This document shows positions 51,016 through 63,971 of a DNA stretch of 64,000 nucleotides, in pieces. The notes beneath the pieces were generated by a model, which saw only the letters and a list, made by a program, of their open reading frames with translations, did no database searches and had not been told where the DNA came from. Each line of letters opens with the position of its first letter. Within the stretch, counting starts at the first letter, position 1. The position numbers and the translations under genes were made by a program. This stretch comes from Devosia sp. 66-14 (GTDB taxonomy: Bacteria > Pseudomonadota > Alphaproteobacteria > Rhizobiales > Devosiaceae): assembly GCA_001899085.1 (NCBI GenBank), contig MKVB01000006.1, positions 496,160-560,159 on the forward strand. Direction: 5' to 3'.

Positions 51016-51150
51016 GGTACCCCCACCCTTGATCCCTCCCCACAAGGGGGAGGGAGACGCATGCTGATGCTGCGGTTCTCGCTCTCCCTCCCCTTGATGG
51101 GGAGGGCAGCGCAGCTTGGCGGCGCCGCCGCCTAGCGGAGCTGGGTGGGG
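51016..51150. repeat. GC-rich palindromic intergenic element between convergent genes
   Basis: Two hairpins, CCCTCCCC-ACAAG-GGGGAGGG-type at about 51033-51054 and CCCTCCCC-TTGAT-GGGGAGGG at 51085-51107, are enclosed by an outer CCCCACCC / GGGTGGGG pair. It lies between the stops of yejA and the urocanase-like gene and may block read-through from both sides. Confidence 0.7.
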
Positions 51151-51174: not shown

Positions 51175-52842
51175 TCAGCTCTCCCGCAAATCAAACCACC
51201 CGATCCCCTTCATCTCCGCCTCATCCACCGCCTCGTCATACCCCGCATCAGCATAGCGCATCACGCCGAGCGCGGTGTCATTGGTCAGCGCGTGCGACAG
51301 CCGCTCGTCGCCGGCCTCGGTCCCATCCGCCACCAGCGTGACGCCCGCAGACGTCATGTAGCCGGCATAGCCGCCGCCGCCGGAATGAATCACCACCAGG
51401 TCGGCCATCGAAGCGGTGAGCAGCATCGCATCGAGCAGCGGCCAGTCGGCGATGGCGTCGGAGCCGTCCTGCATGTTCTCGGTCATGATGTTGGGGTGGG
51501 CCATCGCCCCGGCATCGAGGTGATCTCTGGAGAACGCCACCGGCCCCGCAAGCTCGCCTGAGCGCACCAGGGCATTCACCGCCAGCGCCAGCGCTGTGCG
51601 CTCGCCATGCCCGAGCCAGGCGATGCGTGCCGGCAGGCCTTCGAACGGCACGTATTGCCGGGCCAGCCGGATCCAGTTGGTGACGATCTTGTTGTCCGGG
51701 AACATCTCCAGCACCAGGTCGTCGATCCGTGCGATGTCCGACGCTTCGCCTGACAGCGCCATCCAGCGGAACGGCCCGATGGCGCGGGCGAATAGCGGCC
51801 TGAGATAGGCCTCGGTGAAGATCGGGATGTCGAAGGCGTTCTCGACGCCGGCCTGCCTGGCTTGGGTGCGGATCAGGTTGCCATTGTCGAACACCTCCGC
51901 GCCGGCCGCCTGGAATCCCAGCATGGCCCGCACATGATCGGCGATCGAGGCACGGCTCGCCGCCATCAATTGGCCCTGCCCATCCACCCGCAGCCTGCGC
52001 ACCTCGTCGAGGCTCATGCCCTTGGGCACGTAGCCGTAGACGAGGTCGTGCGCGCTGGTCTGGTCGGTGACGATGTCCGGGATAATGCCGCGCCGGAGAA
52101 TTTCCGGGTAGACCTCGGCGGCATTGGCCACCAGCCCGACCGACAGCGCGCGCTTGTCGCGCACTGCCGCGGCGATCATTTCGAGCGCGGTATCGAGATC
52201 CGGCGCGATCTCCTCGAGATAGCCGATTTCCTTCCGCCGCTCGGCCCGAACCGGGTCGACATCGACGTCGAGAATTGCGGCGCCCGCCATTCGGCCGGCC
52301 AGCGGCTGCGCCCCGCCCATGCCGCCCATCCCCGCCGTGAGGATGAAGCGGCCGGCAAGCGAACCACCGAAGCGCTTTTCGGCGATGCGCATGAAGATCT
52401 CGTAGGTGCCCTGAATGACACCCTGGCTGCCGATATACTGCCAGGCGCCGGCGGTGAGCCCGCCCCAGGCGATCAGGCCCTTCTTTTCGAGCTCGTAGAA
52501 CACCTCGGCCTTGGCCCACTGCCCGACAATGTTGCAGTTGGCCATGATCACCAGCGGCGCCTGCGCATGCGTCTTCAGCAGGCCGATCGGCTTGCCGGAC
52601 TGGATGACCAGCGTCTGATCCTCGTCCATGGTGGTCAGCGCTTCGACGATTTGCCGATGCGCCGCCCAGTTGCGCGCCGCCTTGCCGAGCGCCGCGTAGA
52701 CGATCAGCTTGTCCGGATCCTCACCGACAGCGAGGACATTCTCGAGCAGGCGCAGCAACGCCTCCTGCCGCCAGCCCTTGGCGCGCAGCACCGGACCGGA
52801 GGGAATGGGGAAATTCGGATGGCGGGGATTGGGTTTTGGCAT
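51175..52842 (-). CDS. divergent urocanase (HutU) family protein, candidate (S-methyl-)thiourocanate hydratase
   Basis: Protein of 555 aa, full length for urocanase, an NAD+-dependent hydratase. Recognisable blocks are GKPIGLLKTHAQAP, TAGAWQYIGSQGVIQGTYE, AGMGGMGGAQPLAGRMAGA, GDERLSHALTNDTALGVMR-type C-terminus and HLDAGAMAHPN. It departs from housekeeping HutU at key sites: LPARIAWLG has Ala at about residue 408 where Pseudomonas urocanase has C410 (recalled), and HSGGGGYAGYM replaces HHGGGVGMG. No hutH/hutI/hutG partners flank it; instead DUF917, carbamoylase and hydantoinase genes do. Hydration of a modified urocanate is inferred. It is the last gene of the 51-64 kb operon. Confidence 0.85.
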   Translation of the reverse strand: MPKPNPRHPNFPIPSGPVLRAKGWRQEALLRLLENVLAVGEDPDKLIVYAALGKAARNWAAHRQIVEALTTMDEDQTLVIQSGKPIGLLKTHAQAPLVIMANCNIVGQWAKAEVFYELEKKGLIAWGGLTAGAWQYIGSQGVIQGTYEIFMRIAEKRFGGSLAGRFILTAGMGGMGGAQPLAGRMAGAAILDVDVDPVRAERRKEIGYLEEIAPDLDTALEMIAAAVRDKRALSVGLVANAAEVYPEILRRGIIPDIVTDQTSAHDLVYGYVPKGMSLDEVRRLRVDGQGQLMAASRASIADHVRAMLGFQAAGAEVFDNGNLIRTQARQAGVENAFDIPIFTEAYLRPLFARAIGPFRWMALSGEASDIARIDDLVLEMFPDNKIVTNWIRLARQYVPFEGLPARIAWLGHGERTALALAVNALVRSGELAGPVAFSRDHLDAGAMAHPNIMTENMQDGSDAIADWPLLDAMLLTASMADLVVIHSGGGGYAGYMTSAGVTLVADGTEAGDERLSHALTNDTALGVMRYADAGYDEAVDEAEMKGIGWFDLRES

Positions 52843-52869
52843 GCGGTGGTTCTAGCGCACACCGCCGGC

Positions 52870-53009
52870 CGAGACGACCCCCTCCCATCCTCCCCCTTAA
52901 AGGGGGAGGTGCCCCGCCGGGGCGTTAGGCACGATCGAAGACAGAGCCCCGACTCTTCACCTCCCCCTTCATGGGGGAGGCCGGGAGGGGGCCGTCTGCT
53001 TCAGTCAGC
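52870..53009. repeat. palindromic repeat family 2, copy A
   Basis: Begins CGAGACGACCCCCTCCCATC and ends GGGAGGGGGCCGTCT...CAGTCAGCCG. Its internal hairpins (CTCCCCCTT-AAAGGGGGAG) and the segment GGCACGATCGA match copy B at 55393. It lies between the DUF917 and urocanase-like genes. Confidence 0.85.
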
Positions 53010-53014
53010 CGCTC

Positions 53015-54142
53015 TTAAGCCCAGCCCTTCCGAGCCTTCTTCTTCCGCTTCACACCGTCGAGCGCGTATTTGGCCAGTTCGATCCCCATGGCCTTTTCGA
53101 CCGGCGGATAGACCGCCGGGTCGACCACCGAGGAGGAGAGCGGGATCACTTTCTTGGGGACGTGCAGCACGAAGACGAACATGCCTTCTCGCAACTGCCC
53201 GGCGCTGAGCGGCTGGCCGGCGGCATCGAGCGTGGCGATCACATCGGGGAAAGTGGCGAGCCGGTTGCCGCCGGCATCGTCGATGGCCATGTACTCGTTC
53301 ATGGTGTGGATGGTGACGGCCTTGTCGCCCTCACCCAAGACGAACCGCCCGATATCGAAGGCCTCTCTGGTGTAGACGAGGTCTTTCCTGGTCACCGCGC
53401 CCTTTACGAGGATGGTGCCGCCGGTCGCCTTGACGATGGCGTCGATGATCGCCGAGCCGCCCTTTTTCTCCGCTGCGATGATCGCCTCGCCGAGGCTCAA
53501 GGCCAGCGAGATGCCGCCGAGCGCCGCGTTCCGCTGCACATACTTGGCGCGGAGCGGGTTGCGACATGAGGCGATGAAGCCGCCCGACATGTCGGCCGCC
53601 GTGCGGAGGATCGGCGAAATCTTTGCCGTGGCGCCCTTCACCACCAGCTCGATGTAGCGGTTCTCGGCGCGATTGCCGCCCACGGCAGTCTGGATCATCT
53701 TCTTGGGCGATCCGGCCATGCCGATCGAGCCCATGTCGCCGGTCGGATGGGCGCGGATATCGCCCACCGCATCGACCACCTTGGTGCCGAGAATGGCACT
53801 CGGCAGCCAGGCGTTGAGCGTCGAGCTCTTGCCGTTCTGCCCAACCATCAGCCCGCGGACCTTGTCGCCCAGCGCCTTTTCGAGCAGCTTCACCGCCTTG
53901 ACGTAGTCGACACCGCGCATCTCCCAAGGTGTGGTCGAAGCCGGCGCGCCGATTGCGGCGGCCGTCGCCACCCAGTCGCGTGGCTCCAGTTCCTCGATAT
54001 CGACGAGTTCGGGCTTGCCGACGCTTACCGCCGCATAACCGAGCATGCGGCCATGATCGGCCCAGCCACCGCCGCCGGCGGCATAGACGGAGCCGCCTTT
54101 CACCGCGGCTTCCACATCCTTCTCGGTCAGTACGCGACCCAC
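53015..54142 (-). CDS. DUF917 family protein, candidate S-methyl-thiohydantoin desulfurase
   Basis: Cytoplasmic protein of 375 aa of the DUF917 type. The N-terminal GGSVYAAGGGGWADHG glycine-rich motif and GAPASTTPWEMRGVDYV region are typical; a basic C-terminus (KRKKKARKGWA) is unusual. From memory, the Pfam family (PF06032) has been renamed after S-methyl-thiohydantoin desulfurase, which removes sulfur from a thiohydantoin intermediate to give the hydantoin. Sitting between urocanase-like and carbamoylase/hydantoinase genes fits that role. It starts 1 nt after the M20 gene ends. Substrate is not proven. Confidence 0.75.
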   Translation of the reverse strand: MGRVLTEKDVEAAVKGGSVYAAGGGGWADHGRMLGYAAVSVGKPELVDIEELEPRDWVATAAAIGAPASTTPWEMRGVDYVKAVKLLEKALGDKVRGLMVGQNGKSSTLNAWLPSAILGTKVVDAVGDIRAHPTGDMGSIGMAGSPKKMIQTAVGGNRAENRYIELVVKGATAKISPILRTAADMSGGFIASCRNPLRAKYVQRNAALGGISLALSLGEAIIAAEKKGGSAIIDAIVKATGGTILVKGAVTRKDLVYTREAFDIGRFVLGEGDKAVTIHTMNEYMAIDDAGGNRLATFPDVIATLDAAGQPLSAGQLREGMFVFVLHVPKKVIPLSSSVVDPAVYPPVEKAMGIELAKYALDGVKRKKKARKGWA

Positions 54143-54143
54143 T

Positions 54144-55382
54144 CTACAATTCCTTGTCCAACCGCTTCACCGCCTCCAGCAGCACGGCGGCGCCCAGCGC
54201 CACGTCGGCCGTTTCGGCATATTCGTCCGGCGTATGGCTGCGGCCGCCGAGGCAGGGGATGAAGATCATCGCCGCCTTGGTCACCCGCGCCATCCAGGCC
54301 GTGTCGTGCCCGGCGCCCGAGGCCATGCGGCGATGGCGCGCCCCCACGGCCACGGCTGCCGCGTCGAGCGTATCAAGCACGAACGGGTCGCCAGGCGTTG
54401 GCAAATTGTCTGAAATGGTCAATGGCGGCTCTATCGTCACCCCGGTCGCGGCGGCCGTCGCGTTAACGAGGACTGCGAGCTCGGCGACGAAGCGCTGCAT
54501 GTCCTCGCGTCGCTCGGCGCGCGCATCGATCAGCAGCCGCGCGCGCGACGGCACGACGTTGGCCGCCCCAGGCTCGATCGAGAACTCGCCGACGGTGGCA
54601 GCGAAATGGAACTTGCCCTGGCTGAGCAGCGTCCCCAGTTCCTCGATCCCCAGCACCAGCCGCGCCGCGGTGGTCAACGCATCCTGGCGCGAGCCCATCG
54701 GAGTCGTGCCGGCATGGTCGGCCCGACCGTTCACCACCACTTCGATCCGCGTAATTCCGGCAATCGCCGTCACCACGCCAATATCGAGATGCCCGTCCTC
54801 CAGCACCGGCCCCTGCTCGATATGCAGCTCGAGAAAGGCGGCGATGTCCTCACGCTTCTCGACCTTGCCCGGGTTGCCGCCCACCTCGGCGATCCCTTCA
54901 CGCAAAGTGAACTGGTCGACCTCGCGGTCGAGCCAGTTGTCCGGCCTGACTCCAGCCATGCCGCGACTGCCGACGCAGGAGACGCCAAAGATCGACACCT
55001 CCTCGGCAAGGAAATCGACGATCTCCAGATCGTGCTCGAGCTGCACGCCCTGATCGGTCAGCGCCCGCGCCACCTCAAGGGCTGCGGAGACGCCGGCAAT
55101 GCCGTCGAAGCGGCCACCATCGGGCACGGTATCGGAGTGGGAGCCGAGCATGATGGTCTTGCCGCCGGTGCGGCCGCGACGGCGACCGATCAGGTTGCCG
55201 GAAGCGTCGACGCGCGTTTCCAGCCCGGCGGCCTCGAAGCACCGCACCAGCCACTCGCGGCCGCGGAGGAACATCGGGGTGAAGGCGCGACGGGTGTAGG
55301 GCCGCCCCGGCTCGGTGATCTCGGCGAGGGTCGCGATATCCTCGGCAATGCGGGCTTCCTGGGTGGGGAGATTGCGGGTCAT
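54144..55382 (-). CDS. M20 family Zn-dependent hydrolase (N-carbamoyl-L-amino-acid hydrolase / allantoate amidohydrolase type)
   Basis: Amidohydrolase of 412 aa in the hydantoinase/carbamoylase branch of M20. Metal-site motifs are GSHSDTVPDGGRFDG (His, Asp), FLAEEVSIFG (Glu-Glu), HIEQGPVLE (His) and GGRSHTPDEY (last His). The lid-domain His is in GRADHAGTTPM. It would hydrolyse an N-carbamoyl amino acid to the amino acid, CO2 and ammonia. Following a hydantoinase-like gene, N-carbamoyl-glutamate is the expected substrate under the ergothioneine hypothesis. ATG 55382 excludes ~20 residues encoded in the repeat upstream. Confidence 0.87.
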   Translation of the reverse strand: MTRNLPTQEARIAEDIATLAEITEPGRPYTRRAFTPMFLRGREWLVRCFEAAGLETRVDASGNLIGRRRGRTGGKTIMLGSHSDTVPDGGRFDGIAGVSAALEVARALTDQGVQLEHDLEIVDFLAEEVSIFGVSCVGSRGMAGVRPDNWLDREVDQFTLREGIAEVGGNPGKVEKREDIAAFLELHIEQGPVLEDGHLDIGVVTAIAGITRIEVVVNGRADHAGTTPMGSRQDALTTAARLVLGIEELGTLLSQGKFHFAATVGEFSIEPGAANVVPSRARLLIDARAERREDMQRFVAELAVLVNATAAATGVTIEPPLTISDNLPTPGDPFVLDTLDAAAVAVGARHRRMASGAGHDTAWMARVTKAAMIFIPCLGGRSHTPDEYAETADVALGAAVLLEAVKRLDKEL

Positions 55383-55392
55383 TGGTGGCACG

Positions 55393-55536
55393 CCGAGAGA
55401 GACGGCCCCCTCCCATCCTCCCCCACAAGGGGGGAGGTGCCGCATCGAGTATCAGGCACGATCGAGCCACAAGCTCGACTCTTCACCTCCCCCCTTGTGG
55501 GGGAGGCCGGGAGGGGGCCCTCTCTATCAGTCAGCA
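55393..55536. repeat. palindromic repeat family 2, copy B
   Basis: Shares with copy A (52870) the ends CCCCCTCCCATCCTCCCCC and GGCCGGGAGGGGGCC, the middle GGCACGATCGA and CTCTTCACCTCCCCC, and the final TCAGTCAGC. Internal arms fold back on each other. It lies between the hydantoinase-like and M20 genes. Confidence 0.85.
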
Positions 55537-55539
55537 CCC

Positions 55540-56883
55540 TCACGGCCGCACCCACCGCCCTGCCCCGGGCTCGGCGACGTTGGTTCCGTCAAACACCTGC
55601 CTTCCACGCAGCCAGGTGCCGGCCACCGTCCATGGCAGCTCGATGCCGTTGTATGGCGACCACCCCACCACATTGTGCCCCGAGCGTGCCGCGTCATACA
55701 CCACCGGCCGATCCACCAGCACGGTGATGTCGGCGTCCTTGCCCGCCTCGAGCGCGCCCTTGGTGCCCAGCCGAAAGTGCTTTGCCGGGTTGGCGGCCAT
55801 CAGTTTTGCCGCCCAGGTCAGCGACACGCCGCGCTCCAGTGCCCCCTTGACGAATAGCGGCACCATGGCCTCGAGCCCCGGCACGCCGGAGGAATTGGCC
55901 AGCATGTCCGGGTTGGTCTTCCGATCCTCGGACCAGCTGACGTGATCGGTCGAAACCAGCGTCACATTGCCGGCGGCGACCTGCCGCCACAGCGCTTCCA
56001 CCTCGGCGCGCGGGCGGATCGGCGGGTTGATCTTGGCCTTGCCGCCGAGCCGGCGGACATCGTTTTCCTCATCGAGGGTCAGGTAGTGAATGCAGCACTC
56101 GATGGTGGCGCCAAAGCCGTGCGCCCGGTAGTCGGCAGCGATGTCGTAACCGCGGCTCAGCGAGCAGTGCACCACATGCGCGTCGCAGCCGGTTTGCGCT
56201 CCGGTCTCATAAATCTGCAGCGTCGCCAGCAGTTCGGTCAGCGGCGGCCGGCTCATGCCATGGGCCCGCCAGTCGGTGATCCCGGAGGCTTTCACCCGCG
56301 CCATGGCGGCGCGGACGCTCTCATCGTCTTCGTTGTGGACGCCCGCCGTCAGCCCGGTCTTCGCCACCTCAGCAAAGGCCTCGGCGAGCAGTGGCGGTGA
56401 AATGCGGGGGAAGCGTACGGGGTCGGTGCCGAAGGTCGAGAACTTGAACGCCGCGACGCCCGCCGCCGCCTGCTCGGCGATGCGGCTCGCCCCCTCCTCC
56501 GGGTTGATCGTGCCATAGAGGGCGAAATCCACCCGGGCCTGCGGGGTGGCATGCGCCACCTTGATCCGCGCCGCCTCGGCCGAGCAGACGAGATTACCCT
56601 CGTCATAAGGCATGTCGACGATGGTGGTGACCCCACCGGCCGCCGCTGAACGGGTCGACCAGATGAAATCCTCCTGGTTCCTCTGGCTCAGCGAGTGGGT
56701 CTGCGCATCGATGGCGCCGGGCAGGATCAGCGCCTTGCCGAGCAGATGCCGCTCGTGCGCGTGCGGCGGCGCCCCTTCGCCGACATGCACCACCTTGCCA
56801 TCGCGCACCGCAACATAGCCATCCTCGATCAACATGGAAGGCAGCACCACCGTGCCGGCGAGGACGAGATCGAAATCGGACAT
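55540..56883 (-). CDS. dihydroorotase/hydantoinase-like cyclic amidohydrolase with altered metal motif
   Basis: Amidohydrolase-superfamily protein of 447 aa (dihydroorotase, allantoinase, hydantoinase group). The bridging Lys is probably K147 (AAFKFSTFG), with metal or substrate residues in GVHNEDDE, AHVVHCS and VSTDHVSW. The first metal motif, normally H-x-H after 'PGxID', reads PGAIDAQTHSLSQ, that is Q61-x-H63. So one canonical metal ligand is replaced. It could be a mononuclear variant that opens a hydantoin or related ring. The following M20 carbamoylase would take its product. Confidence 0.82.
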   Translation of the reverse strand: MSDFDLVLAGTVVLPSMLIEDGYVAVRDGKVVHVGEGAPPHAHERHLLGKALILPGAIDAQTHSLSQRNQEDFIWSTRSAAAGGVTTIVDMPYDEGNLVCSAEAARIKVAHATPQARVDFALYGTINPEEGASRIAEQAAAGVAAFKFSTFGTDPVRFPRISPPLLAEAFAEVAKTGLTAGVHNEDDESVRAAMARVKASGITDWRAHGMSRPPLTELLATLQIYETGAQTGCDAHVVHCSLSRGYDIAADYRAHGFGATIECCIHYLTLDEENDVRRLGGKAKINPPIRPRAEVEALWRQVAAGNVTLVSTDHVSWSEDRKTNPDMLANSSGVPGLEAMVPLFVKGALERGVSLTWAAKLMAANPAKHFRLGTKGALEAGKDADITVLVDRPVVYDAARSGHNVVGWSPYNGIELPWTVAGTWLRGRQVFDGTNVAEPGAGRWVRP

Positions 56884-56935
56884 GTTGTGCCTTAAGCTCT
56901 CAGAATACGATGTTCCCCGGTAGGCCGGGGTGCTC

Positions 56936-57685
56936 CTAGGAACGCAGCCGGCGCTGACCGGTGCGGGCCATCAGGACCCGCTCGAGCGCCGACAGCGCAT
57001 CATAGATCAGAACCGCCATCACGCCGACCACCAGGCCGCCCTGGGCGATGAAGGCGATGTTGTTGCTGAGCAGCCCGGCGATGATCACCTCGCCCAGCGT
57101 CGAGGCGGCAACCGTCGAGCCGATGGTGGCGGTCGCCACGGAGATCACGACGGACAGGCGGATGCCGGCGAGGATCACCGGGGTCGCCAGCGGCAGCTCC
57201 ACGCCCAGCAAGCGCTGCCGGTCGGTCATACCGACGCCGCGTGCGGCCTCGGTCACCGCCGGCGGCAAGGTGGTGAGGCCGGTCAGCGCGTTCTCGAAGA
57301 TCGGCAGCAGCCCATAGAGGAACAGCGCCACCAAAGTCGGCGCAGTGCCGAAGCCGAGCACCGGCACGGCCAGCGCCAGTACCGCCACGGGCGGAAAGGT
57401 CTGGCCGATATTGGCGAGCGAGCGGCTCAGCGGCAGGAACTCGGCTCCGAACGGTCGGGTGACGAGGATGGCGAGCCCCACCGCCAGCAGCGTCGACGCG
57501 ATGGTGGCGATGGCGACGATGGTCAGGTGGCTGAGGGTCAGGTTGAGCAGCGAGTTCTGCACATAGATCGCCGGCTGGCTGTTTTTGGTCAGCGGCTGGA
57601 ACACCCAGGCGAAGCTCGTTGGCGTGACGATGAACGCCACCAACAGCGCCAGGACCACCAGCCGGATGATCAGCCCCGGCTTCAT
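56936..57685 (-). CDS. yehW: ABC transporter permease, YehW type (betaine/osmoprotectant family)
   Basis: Permease of 249 aa with six hydrophobic segments and the quaternary-amine-transporter EAA loop (AARGVGMTDRQRLLGVELPL). It is the smaller permease of an OsmF-YehY-YehX-YehW set; gene order and lengths match E. coli osmF-yehYXW. Its ATG overlaps the ATPase stop by 4 nt. Symbol used by homology; the substrate may differ. Confidence 0.85.
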   Translation of the reverse strand: MKPGLIIRLVVLALLVAFIVTPTSFAWVFQPLTKNSQPAIYVQNSLLNLTLSHLTIVAIATIASTLLAVGLAILVTRPFGAEFLPLSRSLANIGQTFPPVAVLALAVPVLGFGTAPTLVALFLYGLLPIFENALTGLTTLPPAVTEAARGVGMTDRQRLLGVELPLATPVILAGIRLSVVISVATATIGSTVAASTLGEVIIAGLLSNNIAFIAQGGLVVGVMAVLIYDALSALERVLMARTGQRRLRS

Positions 57686-58620
57686 TGCGGGCGCTCGGCC
57701 CTGTGGGCGATGTCGTCGCGCCGGATGCGGCCGATGCTGGCGCCATCGTCATCGACCACCGGCAGCATCTCACGGCCGGTCCACAGGCACTCGGCATAGG
57801 CATCGCGCAGAGAGGCATCGGCCGAGATCGGCTCGCCTTGCGCCGGGCCGGGCTCGACCAGGTCGCGGACCTTGACCAACGACAGCAGGCGGAAGGGGCG
57901 CTCGCCGGTGCCGATCAGTTCGGCGACGAACGGCGTTGCCGGTCGGGCGATGATCTCGTCGGGCGGCGCGTATTGCAGCAGCTTGCCCTTGTCCATCACG
58001 GCGATGCGCGAACCGAGATGGATCGCCTCCTCCATGTCGTGCGTCACCAGGACGATGGTGGTGCCGAAGCGCTTCTGGATGGCGAGCAGGTCCGATTGCG
58101 CCTTGGCGCGGATGATCGGGTCGAGCGCGCCGAACGGCTCGTCCATCAGCAGCAGTTTCGGCTCGGCCGCCAGCGCCCGCGCCACGCCGACACGCTGCTG
58201 CTGGCCGCCCGACAGCTCGCTCGGCATGCGATCGCGGAACTCGGCCGGCGGCAGTTGGAACAGCTCCAGCAATTCATCGACCCGGGCGGCGATCCTGCCC
58301 TTGTCCCAGCCCAGCAGCGTCGGCACGGTGGCGATGTTCTGGCCCACCGTGCGGTGCGGAAACAGTCCATGCCCCTGGATGGCGTAGCCGATGCGGCGGC
58401 GGAGCTCGAAGGCCGGGACGGCCCGGGTGTACTGCCCGTCGATCTTCACCGTGCCGGAGGTCGGCTCGATCAGCCGGTTGATCATCCTGAGGAGCGTGGT
58501 CTTGCCCGACCCCGAGGTGCCGACGATCACCGCGATCTCGCCGTCGGCGACGGTGAGGCTCACATGGTCGACAACGGTCAGCTCGAGATAGTCCTTGGTG
58601 AGGGCTTCGATCTCAATCAC
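57682..58620 (-). CDS. yehX: ABC transporter ATP-binding protein, YehX/OpuCA type
   Basis: ATPase of 312 aa. Walker A GTSGSGKTT, signature LSGGQQQRVG, Walker B LLLMDEPFGALD, and the DPIIRAKAQ helix typical of quaternary-amine transporters. The C-terminal ~60 residues keep one partial CBS-like region (REMLPVVDDDGASIGRI). GTG 58620 overlaps the larger permease stop by 8 nt. Confidence 0.9.
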   Translation of the reverse strand: MIEIEALTKDYLELTVVDHVSLTVADGEIAVIVGTSGSGKTTLLRMINRLIEPTSGTVKIDGQYTRAVPAFELRRRIGYAIQGHGLFPHRTVGQNIATVPTLLGWDKGRIAARVDELLELFQLPPAEFRDRMPSELSGGQQQRVGVARALAAEPKLLLMDEPFGALDPIIRAKAQSDLLAIQKRFGTTIVLVTHDMEEAIHLGSRIAVMDKGKLLQYAPPDEIIARPATPFVAELIGTGERPFRLLSLVKVRDLVEPGPAQGEPISADASLRDAYAECLWTGREMLPVVDDDGASIGRIRRDDIAHRAERPQ

Positions 58621-59800
58621 GGCGCGTATCCTTGGGTGAGACCATTTCGACAATTGCATCGAGCACGACCGCCGCGGCGAAGGCGAGCGCCACGGTTGGC
58701 ACGGCGCCGAGCAGCACCAGGTCCATCGCCGTCTGCCCGACGCCCTGGAACACGAAGACGCCAAAACCGCCGCCACCGATCAGCGCGGCAATGGTGGCGA
58801 GACCGATATTCTGCACCAGCACGATGCGGATGCCGGTGAGGATCACCGGAAAGGCCAGCGGGAACTCGACGGTCGTCAGCCGCTGCCAGTCGGTCATGCC
58901 CATGCCCTTGGCGGCATCATTGGCGGCGGGCGGCACGCCATCGAGGCCGACCACCGTATTGGCGACCACCGGCAGCAGCGAATAGGCAAACAGCGCCACC
59001 ATGGCCGGCGCCGCACCGATGCCGGAGATGCCGACGGCGGAAGCACCGGGGATGTTGGCAGCCACCCAGGCGAGCGGCGCGATCAGGAGGCCGAACAGCG
59101 CAATCGACGGGATGGTCTGGATGGCGTTCAGCACGTTGAGCACCGGCGCGCGCCACGCGTCGCTGCGTTGGCAGAGCACGCCGATGGGGATGCCGGCCAC
59201 CGTTGCCGCGGCGAGCGAGCCCAGCGCCAGCGCCAGATGCGTCTGGGCCTCGCGCCAGAAGGTGTCGCCGCGATTGGCATATTCACGCAGGATCGACAGG
59301 TCGTTCAGCGTGCCCGAGCCGAGCAGCACGGCGAAGAACAGAGCCACCGCCGCCAGCACGCCGATGCGGGTCCACGGCGTCAGCTTCAATCGCGCGATAG
59401 CGTCGGCTGCCAGAAGGGCGAAAGCGAAAACCAGCAGCCAGAAGCCGCCGCCGGGCGAAACGCGGGCGATCTTGTCGCCAGGCGGCGTCAGGAAGGTGCC
59501 GGCATGGCCGATGGCGACGAACAGCAGCGCCAGGACAACAAGGCTGGTGCCGAGCCGCCACAGGGTCGGCGTCCGGAGCAGCGCGATGGCTATGCCTGCG
59601 GCCAGCAGCACAGCGAGGATGGCGGCTTCCCAGCTCGGGAGTGCGGCGAGCAGGCCCTTGGATTCGCCGAGGACGATGCGGTTGGCGCGAAAGGCGGCGA
59701 AGGGCAGGAACGCGGCGATAGCAGCGAGTGCGGCGATCAGCAGGCCGAGCTTGTCGACGGCGAAGCTTCGTGTCGGTACGGCGATAGCAGCGTCGGTCAC
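58613..59800 (-). CDS. yehY: ABC transporter permease, YehY type (long form)
   Basis: Permease of 395 aa. An N-terminal extension of about five hydrophobic segments (residues ~15-170) precedes the six-segment transport domain (LALGSLAAATVAGIPIGVLC) with EAA loop DAAKGMGMTDWQRLTTVEFP. This long form matches YehY. GTG 59800 is preceded by GGAG ~9 nt upstream. Confidence 0.88.
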   Translation of the reverse strand: MTDAAIAVPTRSFAVDKLGLLIAALAAIAAFLPFAAFRANRIVLGESKGLLAALPSWEAAILAVLLAAGIAIALLRTPTLWRLGTSLVVLALLFVAIGHAGTFLTPPGDKIARVSPGGGFWLLVFAFALLAADAIARLKLTPWTRIGVLAAVALFFAVLLGSGTLNDLSILREYANRGDTFWREAQTHLALALGSLAAATVAGIPIGVLCQRSDAWRAPVLNVLNAIQTIPSIALFGLLIAPLAWVAANIPGASAVGISGIGAAPAMVALFAYSLLPVVANTVVGLDGVPPAANDAAKGMGMTDWQRLTTVEFPLAFPVILTGIRIVLVQNIGLATIAALIGGGGFGVFVFQGVGQTAMDLVLLGAVPTVALAFAAAVVLDAIVEMVSPKDTRRD

Positions 59801-59820
59801 CGGTATCGCTCCATACTCGA

Positions 59821-59900
59821 TGTCATCCCTGCGAAAGCAGGGACCCAACTCGCGGCCAGCGCGGGCTGGGCGATGGGTCCCTGCTTTCGCAGGGATGACA
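59821..59900. repeat. palindromic repeat (27-bp perfect inverted arms) between binding-protein and permease genes
   Basis: Arms 59821-59847 and 59874-59900 are perfect complements with the core GTCATCCCTGCGAAAGCAGG, closely related to the GTCATTCCCGCGAAGGCGGG core of the repeats at 31916 and 32357. It sits in the 193-bp gap inside the transport operon, where such structures often set relative mRNA levels. Confidence 0.9.
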
Positions 59901-59993
59901 AGCGGTGGTCGTTGCCGAAGCGCGTCATGCCCAAAACACTAGGGGTGGGCAGTCGTCCTGCCCACCCCCAAAATGCATTGACCGTGCGGCGGC

Positions 59994-60902
59994 TTACTTC
60001 AGGAAGCCGTTGGTCTTCAGCCAGTCGATGGCGACGTCCTTGGCAGCTTCGCCACCGACCTGGATACGGCCGTTGAGCGTCTGCAGGGTGGTCAGGTCGA
60101 GCTTGGCGAAGACCGGCTTCAGCAGCTCTTCGATCTGCGGGTTGGCCTTGAGCACCGCTTCGCGGATGATCGGGGCCGGCTCGTAGACGGGCTGCACGCC
60201 CTTGTCGTCGGTCATGACGACGAGACCCGAGGGGGCGATGCCGCCATCGGTGCCGTAGACCATGGCGGCGTTCACGCCATTGGTCTGCTGCGCGGCTGCG
60301 GCGATGGTCGCCGCCGTATCACCGCCCGAAAGGGTCACCAGCTGGTCCGGCTTCAGGGTGAAGCCATAGACTTCCTGGAACTTGGGCAGCGCGGCCGGCG
60401 ACGAGACGAACTCGGCCGAGGCGGCCAGCTTGATGTTGCCGCCGCCGGCGATGTAGGCGCCGAGCTCGCTGAAGGTCGCGAGCTTGTTGGCATCGGCCAC
60501 GTCCTTGCGGACGGCCACGGCCCAGGTGTTGTTGGCGGGAGCGGGCGACAGCCAGACAATCTTGTTGGCGTCGTAGTCGAGCTTCTTGGCTTCCTCATAC
60601 GCCTTGGCGGCGTCGTTCCACAGCGGATCGTCGGCCTTCTCGAAGAAGAACGCGGCGTTGCCGGTATATTCGGGATAAATGTCGATCTCGCCGGCGATGA
60701 TCGCCTGGCGCACGACGGGCGTGCCGCCGAGCTGGATCTTTTCGGTGACGGCGACACCATTGGCCTGCAGCACCTGGCTGATGATGTTGCCGAGCAAGCC
60801 ACCTTCAGTATCGATCTTCGAGGACACGACGACCTGGGCGTTCGCTGCAGTCACCGTGAAGGCCAGCGCCGCGACGGCGCCGAGCAGTTTCTTCGAAAGC
60901 AT
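59994..60902 (-). CDS. osmF: quaternary-amine ABC transporter substrate-binding protein, OsmF type
   Basis: Periplasmic binding protein of 302 aa, same length as E. coli OsmF. Signal peptide MLSKKLLGAVAALAFTVTAANA. Mature motifs include VVSSKIDTEGGLLGNII, GEIDIYPEYTGNAAFFF and PAPIIREAVLKANP, all typical of OsmF/ProX-type proteins that bind betaines. It is the first transport gene, after the lyase. Ergothioneine and its relatives are trimethyl-histidine betaines, so such a protein is a plausible receptor; the ligand is inferred. Confidence 0.88.
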   Translation of the reverse strand: MLSKKLLGAVAALAFTVTAANAQVVVSSKIDTEGGLLGNIISQVLQANGVAVTEKIQLGGTPVVRQAIIAGEIDIYPEYTGNAAFFFEKADDPLWNDAAKAYEEAKKLDYDANKIVWLSPAPANNTWAVAVRKDVADANKLATFSELGAYIAGGGNIKLAASAEFVSSPAALPKFQEVYGFTLKPDQLVTLSGGDTAATIAAAAQQTNGVNAAMVYGTDGGIAPSGLVVMTDDKGVQPVYEPAPIIREAVLKANPQIEELLKPVFAKLDLTTLQTLNGRIQVGGEAAKDVAIDWLKTNGFLK

Positions 60903-60996
60903 GATGGTCTCCTTATTGTTCCAGCCGTGCAGTCCCTGGGCCGGAATTGGCGCCAAACCTATACGGGCGCCAAACAAAAGTCATACCCCCGGCATG

Positions 60997-62550
60997 CTAC
61001 GCGACCGGCCCCAGTGCGAAAAACTCGTCCAGTGCCGGGATGGGCGCGTGGGAAATCAGTTCCGCCATGGTCTGTTCGGAGCCGAGGTCGCTTTCGATGA
61101 TTTCGACTTCGGCCGAGAGCGGCCGGTCCACCTGATAAAAGGCCGCGTGGGTGCGCACCTTGTCGTAGACCATGCCCGGCACGCCGCTGGGCCGATCCCC
61201 CAGGATGTCCATGGCCTGGGCAGAGAGCAGGCCCTCGAGTGCGGCGAGGCGCTTCAGCGCCCGCACCTGCCGCTCGAAGCGCTCCACCACCAACGGCAGG
61301 AACGACACCTCGTCTTCGAGCCCCGCCGCCACCACCAGTGACTGCGCCGAGACCGGCACCGACATCGACAGCGCCCGAGCGAAGAGCTCGCCGGCCAGCT
61401 TGATGATCGGGCCGAAGCCGGTGGCAATGGCGCCGCGCGGCACCAGGTTGATCGGCAGGTCGCGGCGCGCGCCATTGCTGAGCAGCACGCAGCGGTTGAA
61501 CGAGTTGCGCGCCGCATGGGCCAGCGCCAGTTGCGCGGTCTGCAGGTAGATGGTCACGTCGAGCGGCAGCGAGCCGCCCGAGGTCAGCACCTGCCCGTCG
61601 ACCACCACCGGATTGTCATCGGTGCGGCCAGTGGCAGCGAGCACGGTGCGGCCAGCGACCAGCAGCGTGTCGAAGCCCGAGCCGAACACCTGCGCCATCA
61701 TGCGCAGCGACAGCGGATCCTGCACATGGGTGGCGTTCGGCCAGTCCCAGCCCATGGCGTTGTGGTAGAGCCAGGCGCCGATCTCGGCTTCGCGCTCGGT
61801 CCCCACATGCGCTACGGCCTTCCAGGGGTCGCGCGAGGCGCCGAGCGCGCCGGCAGTGGTCAGGCTGGTGGCGAGCAGCATCCGCATGGCGGTAGCCGCC
61901 GAACGCACCGCTTCGGCGGCGGCGGCAAAGCCCACGGCATTGACGCTGACTGAAGCGAGGCTGTCGCGCGGCGCCATGCGGCAGGGCTTCAGCCCGGCCT
62001 CGGCCAGTGCCGCTTCGGCCGACATGCGCCGGTTCTGGTACACCGCCTCGCCGACCCCGGTCAGCACGGCGCCGATCTGGCCCATCAGCCCGATATCGGC
62101 CGTGCCGATCGAGCCGGTGCGCCGCACCACCGGCACCACGTCCTTGTCGAGCAGCGCCAGGTAGGCATCGACCAGGCCGCGCGAACAACCGACCCGGCCG
62201 GTCAGCGCGGTATTGACGCGGATCGCCATGGCGCTGCGCACCACGGAACTGGGGAACGGCGCTCCGGTGCCGAAATGATGCGCCCGCACCAGCCCGAGAT
62301 TAAACATCTCGAGTTCTTCGGGCGACCATTCGACATCCTTCATGGCGCCGACGCCGGTATTGGCGCCATAGACCGCCTCGCCGCGCGCGATCTTGTCCTC
62401 GACCACCTTGCGGGCGACATCGACGCGCGCCATGGCGGCATCGTCGGCGGCAAGCGAAACCGCCCGTGCCCCGACCCGCGCCAGACTCGCAAAGCTCATG
62501 GGCTTGCCGTCGAGGGAAAGGGTACCGGACTGGGTCTGAAGGTGATGCAT
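60997..62550 (-). CDS. aromatic ammonia-lyase family protein without MIO triad, candidate ergothionase
   Basis: Histidine-ammonia-lyase fold protein of 517 aa. Family landmarks are YGANTGVGAMKD (Tyr61), GLVRAHHFGTG, TDDNPVV and the C-terminal helical bundle. At the MIO site, where lyases have GSxGASGD-L, it reads GSIGTADIGL: Thr150-Ala151-Asp152 instead of Ala-Ser-Gly, so the MIO electrophile cannot form. Ergothionase, which eliminates trimethylamine from ergothioneine, is a known homologue that, as I recall, works by acid/base catalysis without MIO. The neighbouring betaine importer and urocanase-like hydratase support that type of reaction. Confidence 0.88.
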   Translation of the reverse strand: MHHLQTQSGTLSLDGKPMSFASLARVGARAVSLAADDAAMARVDVARKVVEDKIARGEAVYGANTGVGAMKDVEWSPEELEMFNLGLVRAHHFGTGAPFPSSVVRSAMAIRVNTALTGRVGCSRGLVDAYLALLDKDVVPVVRRTGSIGTADIGLMGQIGAVLTGVGEAVYQNRRMSAEAALAEAGLKPCRMAPRDSLASVSVNAVGFAAAAEAVRSAATAMRMLLATSLTTAGALGASRDPWKAVAHVGTEREAEIGAWLYHNAMGWDWPNATHVQDPLSLRMMAQVFGSGFDTLLVAGRTVLAATGRTDDNPVVVDGQVLTSGGSLPLDVTIYLQTAQLALAHAARNSFNRCVLLSNGARRDLPINLVPRGAIATGFGPIIKLAGELFARALSMSVPVSAQSLVVAAGLEDEVSFLPLVVERFERQVRALKRLAALEGLLSAQAMDILGDRPSGVPGMVYDKVRTHAAFYQVDRPLSAEVEIIESDLGSEQTMAELISHAPIPALDEFFALGPVA

Positions 62551-62601
62551 CTGCAGGGATTAGCGGGTGCCGAAGTGCCATGCAATGGGACGGAGAGAGC
62601 G

Positions 62602-63153
62602 TTACACCGGCGCGAAGGTCAGGCCGGACGCGGTTCCTTCAAGCCTTTCCTTCAAGGAAGAGGACGCGATCAAAGCAATGGGCCAACCGTCAACTCTGAA
62701 CAGGTGAGCATTCCCAACGCGTTCTGGATCGATGCGCAACTCAAGCACCATTCGCAGTTCACCCGCCTTTTCGGGTCGCTTACCGCCCTCAGGCCACAAG
62801 GTGTAGACGGAGTTTGCATAGTCGAAGCAGTCTAGAGCACTCGCCACGTTCAGCACCTCGAACCCTGGCACACCGGCTATGTGAACTGGAAAACGCTCGA
62901 CGCTCAAACCGCAGAGAGATTCGAATGTGGCCCCAATTTCTCGTCGGACGACGGGCATATCGAATGGCCCGAAACTGAAGTCCAACTCCAATCCTTGCTG
63001 CAGAACTGCAAGCTCACGGGGCCTCGGTCCTGTGTAGGAGCGTCCCTCCGTGAATGCCCTGGCATCGATCGCCTGCCCCGCCTCATCGGTCGGCTCGGAC
63101 AGAAACCACTGCGGCTGGATAGTGTGGTCGAAACCCAGTCGATAGAAGGGCAT
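62602..63153 (-). CDS. Imm11-like (DUF1629) protein, orphan immunity-type
   Basis: Cytoplasmic protein of 183 aa. C-terminal signature of the Imm11 family: the region around NVASALDCFDYANSVYTLWP, ELRMVLELRIDPERVGNAHL, FRVDGWPIALIASSSLKERL and GLTFAPV. Imm11 proteins protect against polymorphic toxins, usually beside the toxin gene. Here it lies in a metabolic operon between creatininase-family and lyase genes, with no toxin in view. Its coding DNA looks less GC-rich than its neighbours, suggesting transfer. ATG 63153 has AGAGG upstream. Confidence 0.72.
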   Translation of the reverse strand: MPFYRLGFDHTIQPQWFLSEPTDEAGQAIDARAFTEGRSYTGPRPRELAVLQQGLELDFSFGPFDMPVVRREIGATFESLCGLSVERFPVHIAGVPGFEVLNVASALDCFDYANSVYTLWPEGGKRPEKAGELRMVLELRIDPERVGNAHLFRVDGWPIALIASSSLKERLEGTASGLTFAPV

Positions 63154-63176
63154 TCGATAGACCTCTGCGGGTGATA

Positions 63177-63971
63177 CTACCCCCGGCTCCCCGGCAGCGG
63201 ATAGCGCTCCACCTCGCGTAACAGCTCGATGAAGCTGCCGACCGCGGTCTCCACGGTGATCCGTCCCTTGTCGGCAGTCGCCAGGTGCGCGTCGCCGGCG
63301 GTGCCGAGCGGGTTGATGTCGCTGGCGATCCACGCATAGCTCGTTGGCCCGATCGGCCGCATGTATTTGTAGGCCTGCTCGTCGCGCGCCGCGACCGAGG
63401 GGTAATCCTGCAGCTTTTCGCGGTTCACCAGTTCGGGCCTCAGGTGCATCACCACGGAGGTTTCGCTGTCGCCGCCATGGATGCCGTGGCGGTTCTCGAT
63501 GTCGGAATAGATGTCCTTGGGCCAGTACTGGCTCCAGCCGGTCTTCACCGCCAGCATGCCGGCGCGCACCCTGAGTTCGCGGGCCACGATGTCGAGGATC
63601 GAGACGTTGCCGCCATGCGAGTTGACGAACACCACCTTCATGACACCGGCGCGGGCGATCTCGAGCCCGACCTGCGTCCAGGCATCGATCAGGTTGGTGG
63701 CGGTGTGGCTGAGCGTCCCGGTCTGCCAGATATGTTCGTTGGATTTGCCGATCGCCTGCACCGGCAGGATGCGGATATCGAGGTCGGCAGGCGCCCGCTC
63801 GACCAGCAGGTCGAGGTGCCCCTGGTTGATGATGGTGTCGGTCCCGACCGGCAGATGCGGCCCATGCTGCTCGACCGCCGCGGTGGGGAACACCGCTATG
63901 GTCTTCATCGGATCGATGTCATGGAATTCGAAGGCGGAAAAGTCGTTCCACCAGATCTTGCGGTAGCTCAT
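63177..63971 (-). CDS. creatininase family metal-dependent amidohydrolase
   Basis: Protein of 264 aa of the creatininase/formamidase family. Metal ligands E34, H36 and D45 in VEQHGPHLPVGTD fall at the numbering of Pseudomonas creatininase (recalled). NSHGGN and HGGDSETS supply the further His and Glu. It opens or cleaves cyclic or linear amides; the exact substrate is unclear. It is the first visible gene of the 51-64 kb operon, which may continue beyond the window. A ring-opening role on a hydantoin-like intermediate is possible. Confidence 0.88.
   Translation of the reverse strand: MSYRKIWWNDFSAFEFHDIDPMKTIAVFPTAAVEQHGPHLPVGTDTIINQGHLDLLVERAPADLDIRILPVQAIGKSNEHIWQTGTLSHTATNLIDAWTQVGLEIARAGVMKVVFVNSHGGNVSILDIVARELRVRAGMLAVKTGWSQYWPKDIYSDIENRHGIHGGDSETSVVMHLRPELVNREKLQDYPSVAARDEQAYKYMRPIGPTSYAWIASDINPLGTAGDAHLATADKGRITVETAVGSFIELLREVERYPLPGSRG

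Follow-up and report, generated by a model that had tools for sequence, protein, structure and literature searches.

Which compound is degraded by the enzymes of an operon in Devosia sp. 66-14, and is that compound carried by the importer encoded among them? The operon lies in a stretch of 64,000 nucleotides of contig MKVB01000006.1 (positions 496160-560159; hereafter the window), from a genome of 5.72 Mb, where 11 open reading frames (ORFs) on the minus strand were confirmed from position 63971 down to 51175. An initial annotation, made from the letters alone, had read all 11 as a candidate unit for degrading ergothioneine or S-methyl-ergothioneine, equipped with its own betaine importer. Nine of them, encoding a lyase, a four-gene importer, ErtD, ErtE, a desulfurase, and a hydratase, very probably form an ergothioneine-utilisation (Ert) operon, judging from their sequences, which in all likelihood serves the plain thione branch from ergothioneine to glutamate. 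An OsmF-type ATP-binding cassette (ABC) system would import ergothioneine, its predicted cargo; a lyase without the 4-methylideneimidazole-5-one (MIO) group would strip trimethylamine from it to give thiourocanate; and an NAD+-dependent hydratase would convert thiourocanate to 2-thiohydantoin-5-propionate. A DUF917 enzyme would then swap the thione sulfur for oxygen with release of sulfide, ErtD would open the hydantoin-5-propionate to N-carbamoyl-glutamate, and ErtE would turn the latter into glutamate, ammonia, and CO2. The enzyme route is already known, and what is new here is the OsmF-type importer embedded in it.

Enzymes of the route and choice of branch

The branch was scored with the curated models and cut-offs of NCBIfam 20.0, and the hydratase, desulfurase, ErtD, and ErtE all pass those of the plain-thione Ert pathway (Table 1). 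The hydratase scores 1032.7 bits on the thiourocanate hydratase model NF058530 (cut-off 930) against 742.6 on the S-methyl model NF058531 (cut-off 880), and the DUF917 protein scores 589.7 on the thiohydantoin desulfurase model NF058529 (cut-off 440) against 278.4 on the S-methyl model NF058532 (cut-off 450). The predicted structure of the hydratase (mean predicted local distance difference test score (pLDDT), 71.7) is best matched by 7ned, the thiourocanate hydratase of Paenibacillus sp. Soil724D2, to which it is 66% identical, compared with 52% for the S-methylthiourocanate hydratase 8q9u; its nearest named relative is from Devosia sp. Root413D1 (97% identity). For the desulfurase (mean pLDDT, 73.6), the sole structural match at E <=0.001 is 2o3i, a structural-genomics protein. 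Family membership and branch are assigned here by sequence comparison, and the catalytic activities in this organism are predicted from them. Together with the MIO-less lyase, these scores strongly support degradation of ergothioneine, as the initial annotation had it, and lend no support to its suggestion that DUF917 would favour the S-methyl branch.

That branch, in which an S-methyl hydratase and desulfurase act and methanethiol is released, has in its favour that DUF917 is also the domain family of the S-methyl desulfurase (Pfam name S-Me-THD) and that the lyase evidence given below covers no preference between the two branches. It is nevertheless very unlikely and was rejected on the curated scores, the hydratase and desulfurase missing the S-methyl cut-offs by 137 and 172 bits, with the hydratase closer to 7ned and no S-methyl desulfurase above the cut-off found in a search of the whole genome. 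Elsewhere in the same genome (G000:C10:45315-47392; L211 and L212, where G and L numbers denote genomes and loci), an adjoining pair of other DUF917 proteins falls short of the S-methyl desulfurase cut-off, scoring 129.9 and 97.7 bits.

The best match of the lyase in the PDB is the ergothionase 6s7j of Treponema denticola (178.8 bits), with the best HutH at 154.5 bits. Residues were compared in an alignment that drew on 109 loci with a long lyase match, of which 48 were chosen and 47 proved usable (L110 did not), four genomes being entered twice; its partners were 23 HutH-type sequences (21 over the hutH cut-off, with L195 and L196 just below), Pseudomonas putida HutH, and T. denticola ergothionase. 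The window lyase and all 47 other ert lyases are without HutH Ser143 and Gly144, the MIO triad (Ala-Ser-Gly) being replaced; all of them have Leu where HutH has Tyr280, and Lys in the position of T. denticola residue 383, neither of which occurs in the 23 HutH-type sequences. The equivalent of HutH Glu414 is kept throughout (E412 in the window), and Leu280 and Lys384 of the window lyase, the latter corresponding to T. denticola 383, are common to T. denticola ergothionase. The compared positions have a catalytic role.

In a tree built from 30 ert and 24 HutH-type rows together with the ergothionase, the ert and HutH sequences separate cleanly, with T. denticola ergothionase as a single long branch that makes a clade test with the ert lyases uninformative. 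Several observations weigh against a straightforward ergothionase assignment: identity between the window lyase and T. denticola ergothionase is low (27%); of 50 columns without gaps that distinguish ert lyases from HutH, each group being almost invariant there, the ergothionase matches ert at 14, HutH at 16, and neither at 20; and no NCBIfam ergothionase model responded, even to T. denticola ergothionase itself. The lyase therefore looks ergothionase-like at its predicted active site, and a sister relation to ergothionase is unsupported by overall sequence because the column agreement is even. As regards the trimethylamine that the lyase would release, a GMAS match for methylamine use scores 227 bits, below the cut-off of 469.6; trimethylamine monooxygenase was not searched for. 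A different arrangement was seen in genome G188 (L217, 11114-15576), where an MIO-containing ammonia-lyase (Ala-Ser-Gly and Tyr) adjoins a thiohydantoin desulfurase scoring 599 bits and a thiourocanate hydratase scoring 963.2 bits; this set may act on free 2-thiohistidine instead of its betaine.

The residue comparison cannot tell ergothioneine from other oxidised or 2-thio histidine betaines, such as ergothioneine sulfonate, for which passages of PMC13405746 point to a published pathway linked to Agrobacterium radiobacter, a rhizobial relative. Such a substrate is highly improbable for the window operon, whose hydratase and desulfurase are above thione-specific cut-offs; a pathway that released sulfur as sulfite would presumably not need both. 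Least credible, and rejected, is that the lyase and hydratase are divergent HutH/HutU paralogues of histidine utilisation: both belong to those superfamilies and the hydratase, at 685.8, is above the broad hutU cut-off of 375, but the lyase has no MIO triad and scores 217.6 on the hutH model, below its cut-off of 539.15, and a true HutU (951.9 on hutU, 711.2 on the S-methyl model with its cut-off of 880), the only other hydratase-family match in the genome, adjoins a true HutH (669.9 on hutH) away from the operon. The initial annotation had named grouping of the lyase and hydratase within HutH and HutU clades as one result that would overturn it; instead, the 30 ert lyases stand apart from the 24 HutH-type sequences with MIO-less catalytic residues, and the window hydratase far exceeds the 699.1 bits of the genome's own HutU on the thiourocanate model.

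The ergothioneine reading also draws on the conservation of the enzyme genes as a set. Of 329 candidate stretches from genome_contigs, 312 encode relatives and the best 80 were kept as loci, all counts referring to the stretch read. The five-enzyme core is complete in 73 of the 80 and has one order and strand in 72, which is far beyond chance; complete cores are found in many Rhizobium, Shinella, Ensifer, and Devosia genomes of this set. L089 has all five enzymes, differently ordered; L038, L045, and L101 run off the end of a contig; no ErtD is found nearby in L067 and L100; and L103 and L110 have no lyase. In a sample of 101 genomes that contains the window's own, a hydratase-family match of any strength was found in 46 and one above the cut-off in 18, the scores being two-humped (18 genomes at 1021.7-1054.5 bits, all other matches <=715.9); in a second sample of 385 genomes of the class, 5 pass, again counting the window's own. 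A search for EgtD found none in the window's genome and 14 positives among the 101, none of them among the 18 ert-positive genomes, which therefore probably do not make ergothioneine themselves. In L152 (genome G060), an ert operon with OsmF is without ErtD and ErtE in the stretch read, and the closest ErtD-like gene found outside it in G060 has 58% identity.

The OsmF-type importer and its cargo

The binding protein, two permeases, and ATPase stand together between the lyase and ErtD, and the binding protein passes the cut-off of the curated OsmF model. Of the 32 genomes in which OsmF was found above the cut-off, none has more than one copy. In the family of the window, taken as Devosiaceae from its named relatives, 17 of 61 genomes searched carry ert genes; 16 of these 17 also carry OsmF, directly after the lyase in every case (the contig of G013 holds only lyase, OsmF, and permease 1), and the 17th, G025 (71% complete), yielded a 4-kb contig only and no OsmF. 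Set against the 44 ert-negative genomes of the family, this co-occurrence gives a Fisher value of 5.2e-6, uncorrected for relatedness. In the 385-genome sample, OsmF is found in 4 of 5 ert genomes and 5 of 380 others (Fisher, 6.9e-7, or 2.4e-5 without the window's own genome, relatedness again uncorrected). The order lyase-OsmF-permease-ATPase-permease-ErtD-ErtE-desulfurase-hydratase recurs in G142 and G364, from other orders, whose lyases have ergothionase-type active sites and are 49% and 38% identical to that of the window.

Whether these genes amount to a dedicated ergothioneine importer depends on how this association is weighed against a second explanation, namely that an ordinary glycine-betaine or general betaine system merely sits in the operon and ergothioneine enters otherwise. 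Several features of the distribution are in line with the latter. OsmF above the cut-off is carried by 13 of the 44 ert-negative genomes of the family, and OsmF is absent from 72 of the 80 ert loci as far as these were read, the other 8 being six from Devosia (L037, L039, L067, L072, L087, and L092) and two from bins (L040 and L088). Devosia faecipullorum (L089) carries ert without OsmF nearby, L038 being cut off, and ert and OsmF are likewise unlinked in G082, G117, and G188 (L217); in G117, OsmF lies ~200 kb from an ert locus (L216) that holds lyase, desulfurase, and hydratase only. OsmF operons free of ert genes were seen in ten stretches fetched, less that of G003, where the operon is split over contigs. 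Linked and unlinked OsmF sequences are intermixed in their tree, with at least 9 changes of linkage, and a single linked clade is rejected (approximately unbiased test, 6.7e-39). By eye, the same sugar-type permease precedes lyase and OsmF at L067 (646-2016) and OsmF alone at L168 (5017-6599), as if ert enzymes had been gained or lost around a resident OsmF operon.

The binding site was compared with that of the ergothioneine-binding SpEgtUC, using the ligand contacts described in passages of PMC9732360. By alignment to these, the window OsmF keeps K242, I243, T275, N339, E375, Y419, and Y443 and differs at G244 (D), T274 (G), F293 (Y), T296 (N), Y341 (W), R379 (S, residue 193), and D381 (A). 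The trimethylammonium cage (Y104, N150, W152, Y241, and Y265 in the numbering of the window OsmF) is kept in outline in the aligned sequence, whereas the carboxylate and thione contacts differ; R379 and D381 are kept in Escherichia coli OsmF. Among the missing residues (G244, F293, T296, and R379), G244 and the Tyr-to-Phe switch contribute to the ergothioneine affinity of EgtU according to the same passages, and their replacement by D and Y tells against an EgtU-like mode of binding; any ergothioneine transport would therefore occur by other means or less tightly. It also counts against a specialised importer that a comparison of 18 linked OsmF sequences (two of them identical) with 14 unlinked ones yielded no position at which 17 or more of the former shared a residue present in no more than 2 of the latter. 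A trend was seen only at residue 85, which aligns with EgtU T274: 14 of the 18 linked sequences have Gly there, as do 3 of the 14 unlinked ones, a difference that kinship may explain.

The betaine-importer explanation retains a real, if minority, chance of being correct: the curated model is named for glycine betaine, the EgtU-specific G244, F293, and R379 are absent, the binding-site residues are the same with and without ert linkage, and OsmF operons and ert loci each occur without the other. Against it stand the placement of OsmF directly after the lyase in 16 genomes of the family and in two of other orders with distant lyases, the strength of the co-occurrence, and genome G082, where the ert enzymes lie elsewhere without an importer (L155) and the free OsmF operon adjoins a divergent LysR-type gene of the tandem helix-turn-helix (HTH) build found with ert loci, 34% identical to the Ensifer copy. 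Ergothioneine is accordingly favoured, with modest confidence, as the predicted cargo of the window importer. The anatomy and genomic association of the importer proposed in the initial annotation are thus borne out, its cargo being a prediction from these data.

A wider proposal, put forward tentatively and at somewhat under even confidence, is that OsmF (YehZ-type) proteins represent a second, Gram-negative class of ergothioneine importer, unlike EgtU in its specificity residues, that scavenges ergothioneine for alphaproteobacterial catabolism, in which case ergothioneine or related histidine betaines may be the real OsmF cargo more widely. Searches of the open-access literature found no paper that combines YehZ with ergothioneine and none that combines Devosia with ergothioneine; OsmF and ergothioneine were found together only in a nutrition review on oral cancer. 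A likely uptake step would be added to a known catabolic route, and the cargo of the OsmF-type importer, a class whose E. coli member YehZ binds glycine betaine poorly, becomes a simple question for a binding assay, with a bearing on the fate of the antioxidant ergothioneine and on microbial release of trimethylamine. Other, lineage-specific transport genes were seen near ert (names by eye): an Ensifer-type PotABC-like ABC system in 20 of 80 loci (for example L108, 12676-16989) and a major facilitator superfamily gene in 28 of 80 (for example L098, 12063-13313), which are possible alternative uptake routes.

Operon layout, neighbouring genes, and candidate regulator

All 11 ORFs are listed in Table 1, and their Pfam and NCBIfam assignments agree with the families given in the initial annotation. 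Intergenic gaps range from -8 to 193 bases, and palindromic repeats occur in those that follow OsmF, ErtD, and the desulfurase, the three widest at 157-193 bases. Such palindromic or repeated elements were located within and after the operon at 51032-51114, 52863-52997, 55395-55528, and 59821-59900, and the naive ORF starts of ErtE and permease 1 are too long because these elements inflate them. The refined starts are the authors' choice and unproven: permease 1 at ~59800 (GTG), ATPase at 58620 (GTG), OsmF at 60902, ErtE at 55382, and Imm11 at 63153. Scans of the window with Rfam at the gathering threshold and for tRNAs gave no matches.

Table 1. Genes of the 11-ORF row in order of transcription, in window coordinates
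Feature	Position	Strand	Evidence
Creatininase-family hydrolase, assigned to neighbouring NMT1/cytosine-deaminase-like cluster	63177..63971	-	PF02633 203.5 bits
Imm11-like gene, sporadic passenger outside pathway	62602..63153	-	Imm11 29.7 bits, weak, cut-off 22.1; start refined
MIO-less aromatic amino acid lyase, candidate ergothionase	60997..62550	-	Lyase_aromatic; 6s7j best PDB match; active-site residues
OsmF-type periplasmic substrate-binding protein	59994..60902	-	OpuAC; NF049931 501 bits, cut-off 400
Importer permease 1	58613..59800	-	BPD_transp_1 77.9 bits; start refined
Importer ATPase	57682..58620	-	ABC_tran 121.7 bits; start refined
Importer permease 2	56936..57685	-	BPD_transp_1 65.5 bits
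Predicted ErtD, hydantoin-5-propionate amidohydrolase (amidohydrolase family)	55540..56883	-	NF058538 767.6 bits, cut-off 600
Predicted ErtE, N-carbamoyl-L-glutamate amidohydrolase (M20 peptidase family)	54144..55382	-	NF058540 576.8 bits, cut-off 520; start refined
Predicted thiohydantoin desulfurase (DUF917 / S-Me-THD family)	53015..54142	-	NF058529 589.7 bits, cut-off 440
Predicted thiourocanate hydratase (urocanase-type)	51175..52842	-	NF058530 1032.7 bits, cut-off 930

The first two genes of the row, which the initial annotation had counted in the unit, were rejected as pathway genes. The creatininase stands beside a divergent NMT1-type binding protein in all 9 loci that hold it and is not always accompanied by the lyase: in L154 the creatininase and NMT1 genes flank the opposite end of the ert operon, and in L163 they adjoin OsmF with no intervening lyase. 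The creatininase belongs to a conserved neighbouring cluster in the genus of the window (L005, 2801-9154; window, 63177-63971), in which the creatininase is divergent from NMT1, followed, where the stretch reaches, by an ATPase, a permease, a cytosine deaminase-like hydrolase (551.8 bits, cut-off 403), an FAD oxidase, and an oxidoreductase; its substrate is perhaps a cyclic urea or pyrimidine. Only one other genome, G011 (L037 and L160), was found to have the Imm11-like gene that separates creatininase from lyase in the window.

A LysR-type gene adjoins the lyase, divergently in G142, G364, and five family genomes of other genera (L147-L151) and in the same orientation in L089; relatives of the Ensifer LysR at >=45% identity are found upstream in 34 of the 80 loci. 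All six LysR proteins scanned have two HTH_1 domains, an unusual build that was seen beside ert or OsmF operons at L108 (2786-4030), L148 (14160-15305), L214 (14962-16191), and L171 (11652-12944), and this tandem-HTH LysR is a candidate ert regulator. A search at E 1e-20 did not detect it in the window's genome or in the six other ert genomes of the same genus that were tested; among the 16 genomes tested, it was found only in G082 and in G117, where it lies apart from both ert and OsmF. Also upstream of ert, in an arrangement of Ensifer/Shinella type (L108, 603-2652), lie two genes identified by eye as BKACE-like and as a GlxA-type regulator, a pair that resembles a carnitine catabolism neighbourhood.

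Relation to known systems

The window operon has most in common with the known Ert pathway (NF058529, NF058530, NF058538, and NF058540; 7ned), four of its enzymes being over the cut-offs and 7ned being the closest solved hydratase; it differs in the OsmF-type importer between lyase and ErtD, which the Rhizobium, Shinella, and Ensifer loci do not have within the stretches read. With the S-methyl-thiourocanate branch (8q9u/8q9v, NF058531, and NF058532), it shares reaction logic and protein families, whereas its hydratase and desulfurase fall below the S-methyl cut-offs. Like T. denticola ergothionase, the window lyase is without the MIO triad, has Leu in place of HutH Tyr280 and Lys at the position of residue 383, and keeps the Glu414 equivalent; unlike at these sites, the two are of low identity overall, and the window lyase shows no clear overall affinity to ergothionase over HutH. 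The window OsmF belongs with EgtU (7txl) to the OpuAC family and keeps seven of its contact residues but scores ~100 bits to EgtUC compared with 487 to the nearest OsmF-type structure. The importer also resembles the OsmF/YehZYXW betaine system, with which it shares the curated OsmF assignment and the grouping of binding protein, two permeases, and ATPase, and from which it differs in sitting within an ert operon.

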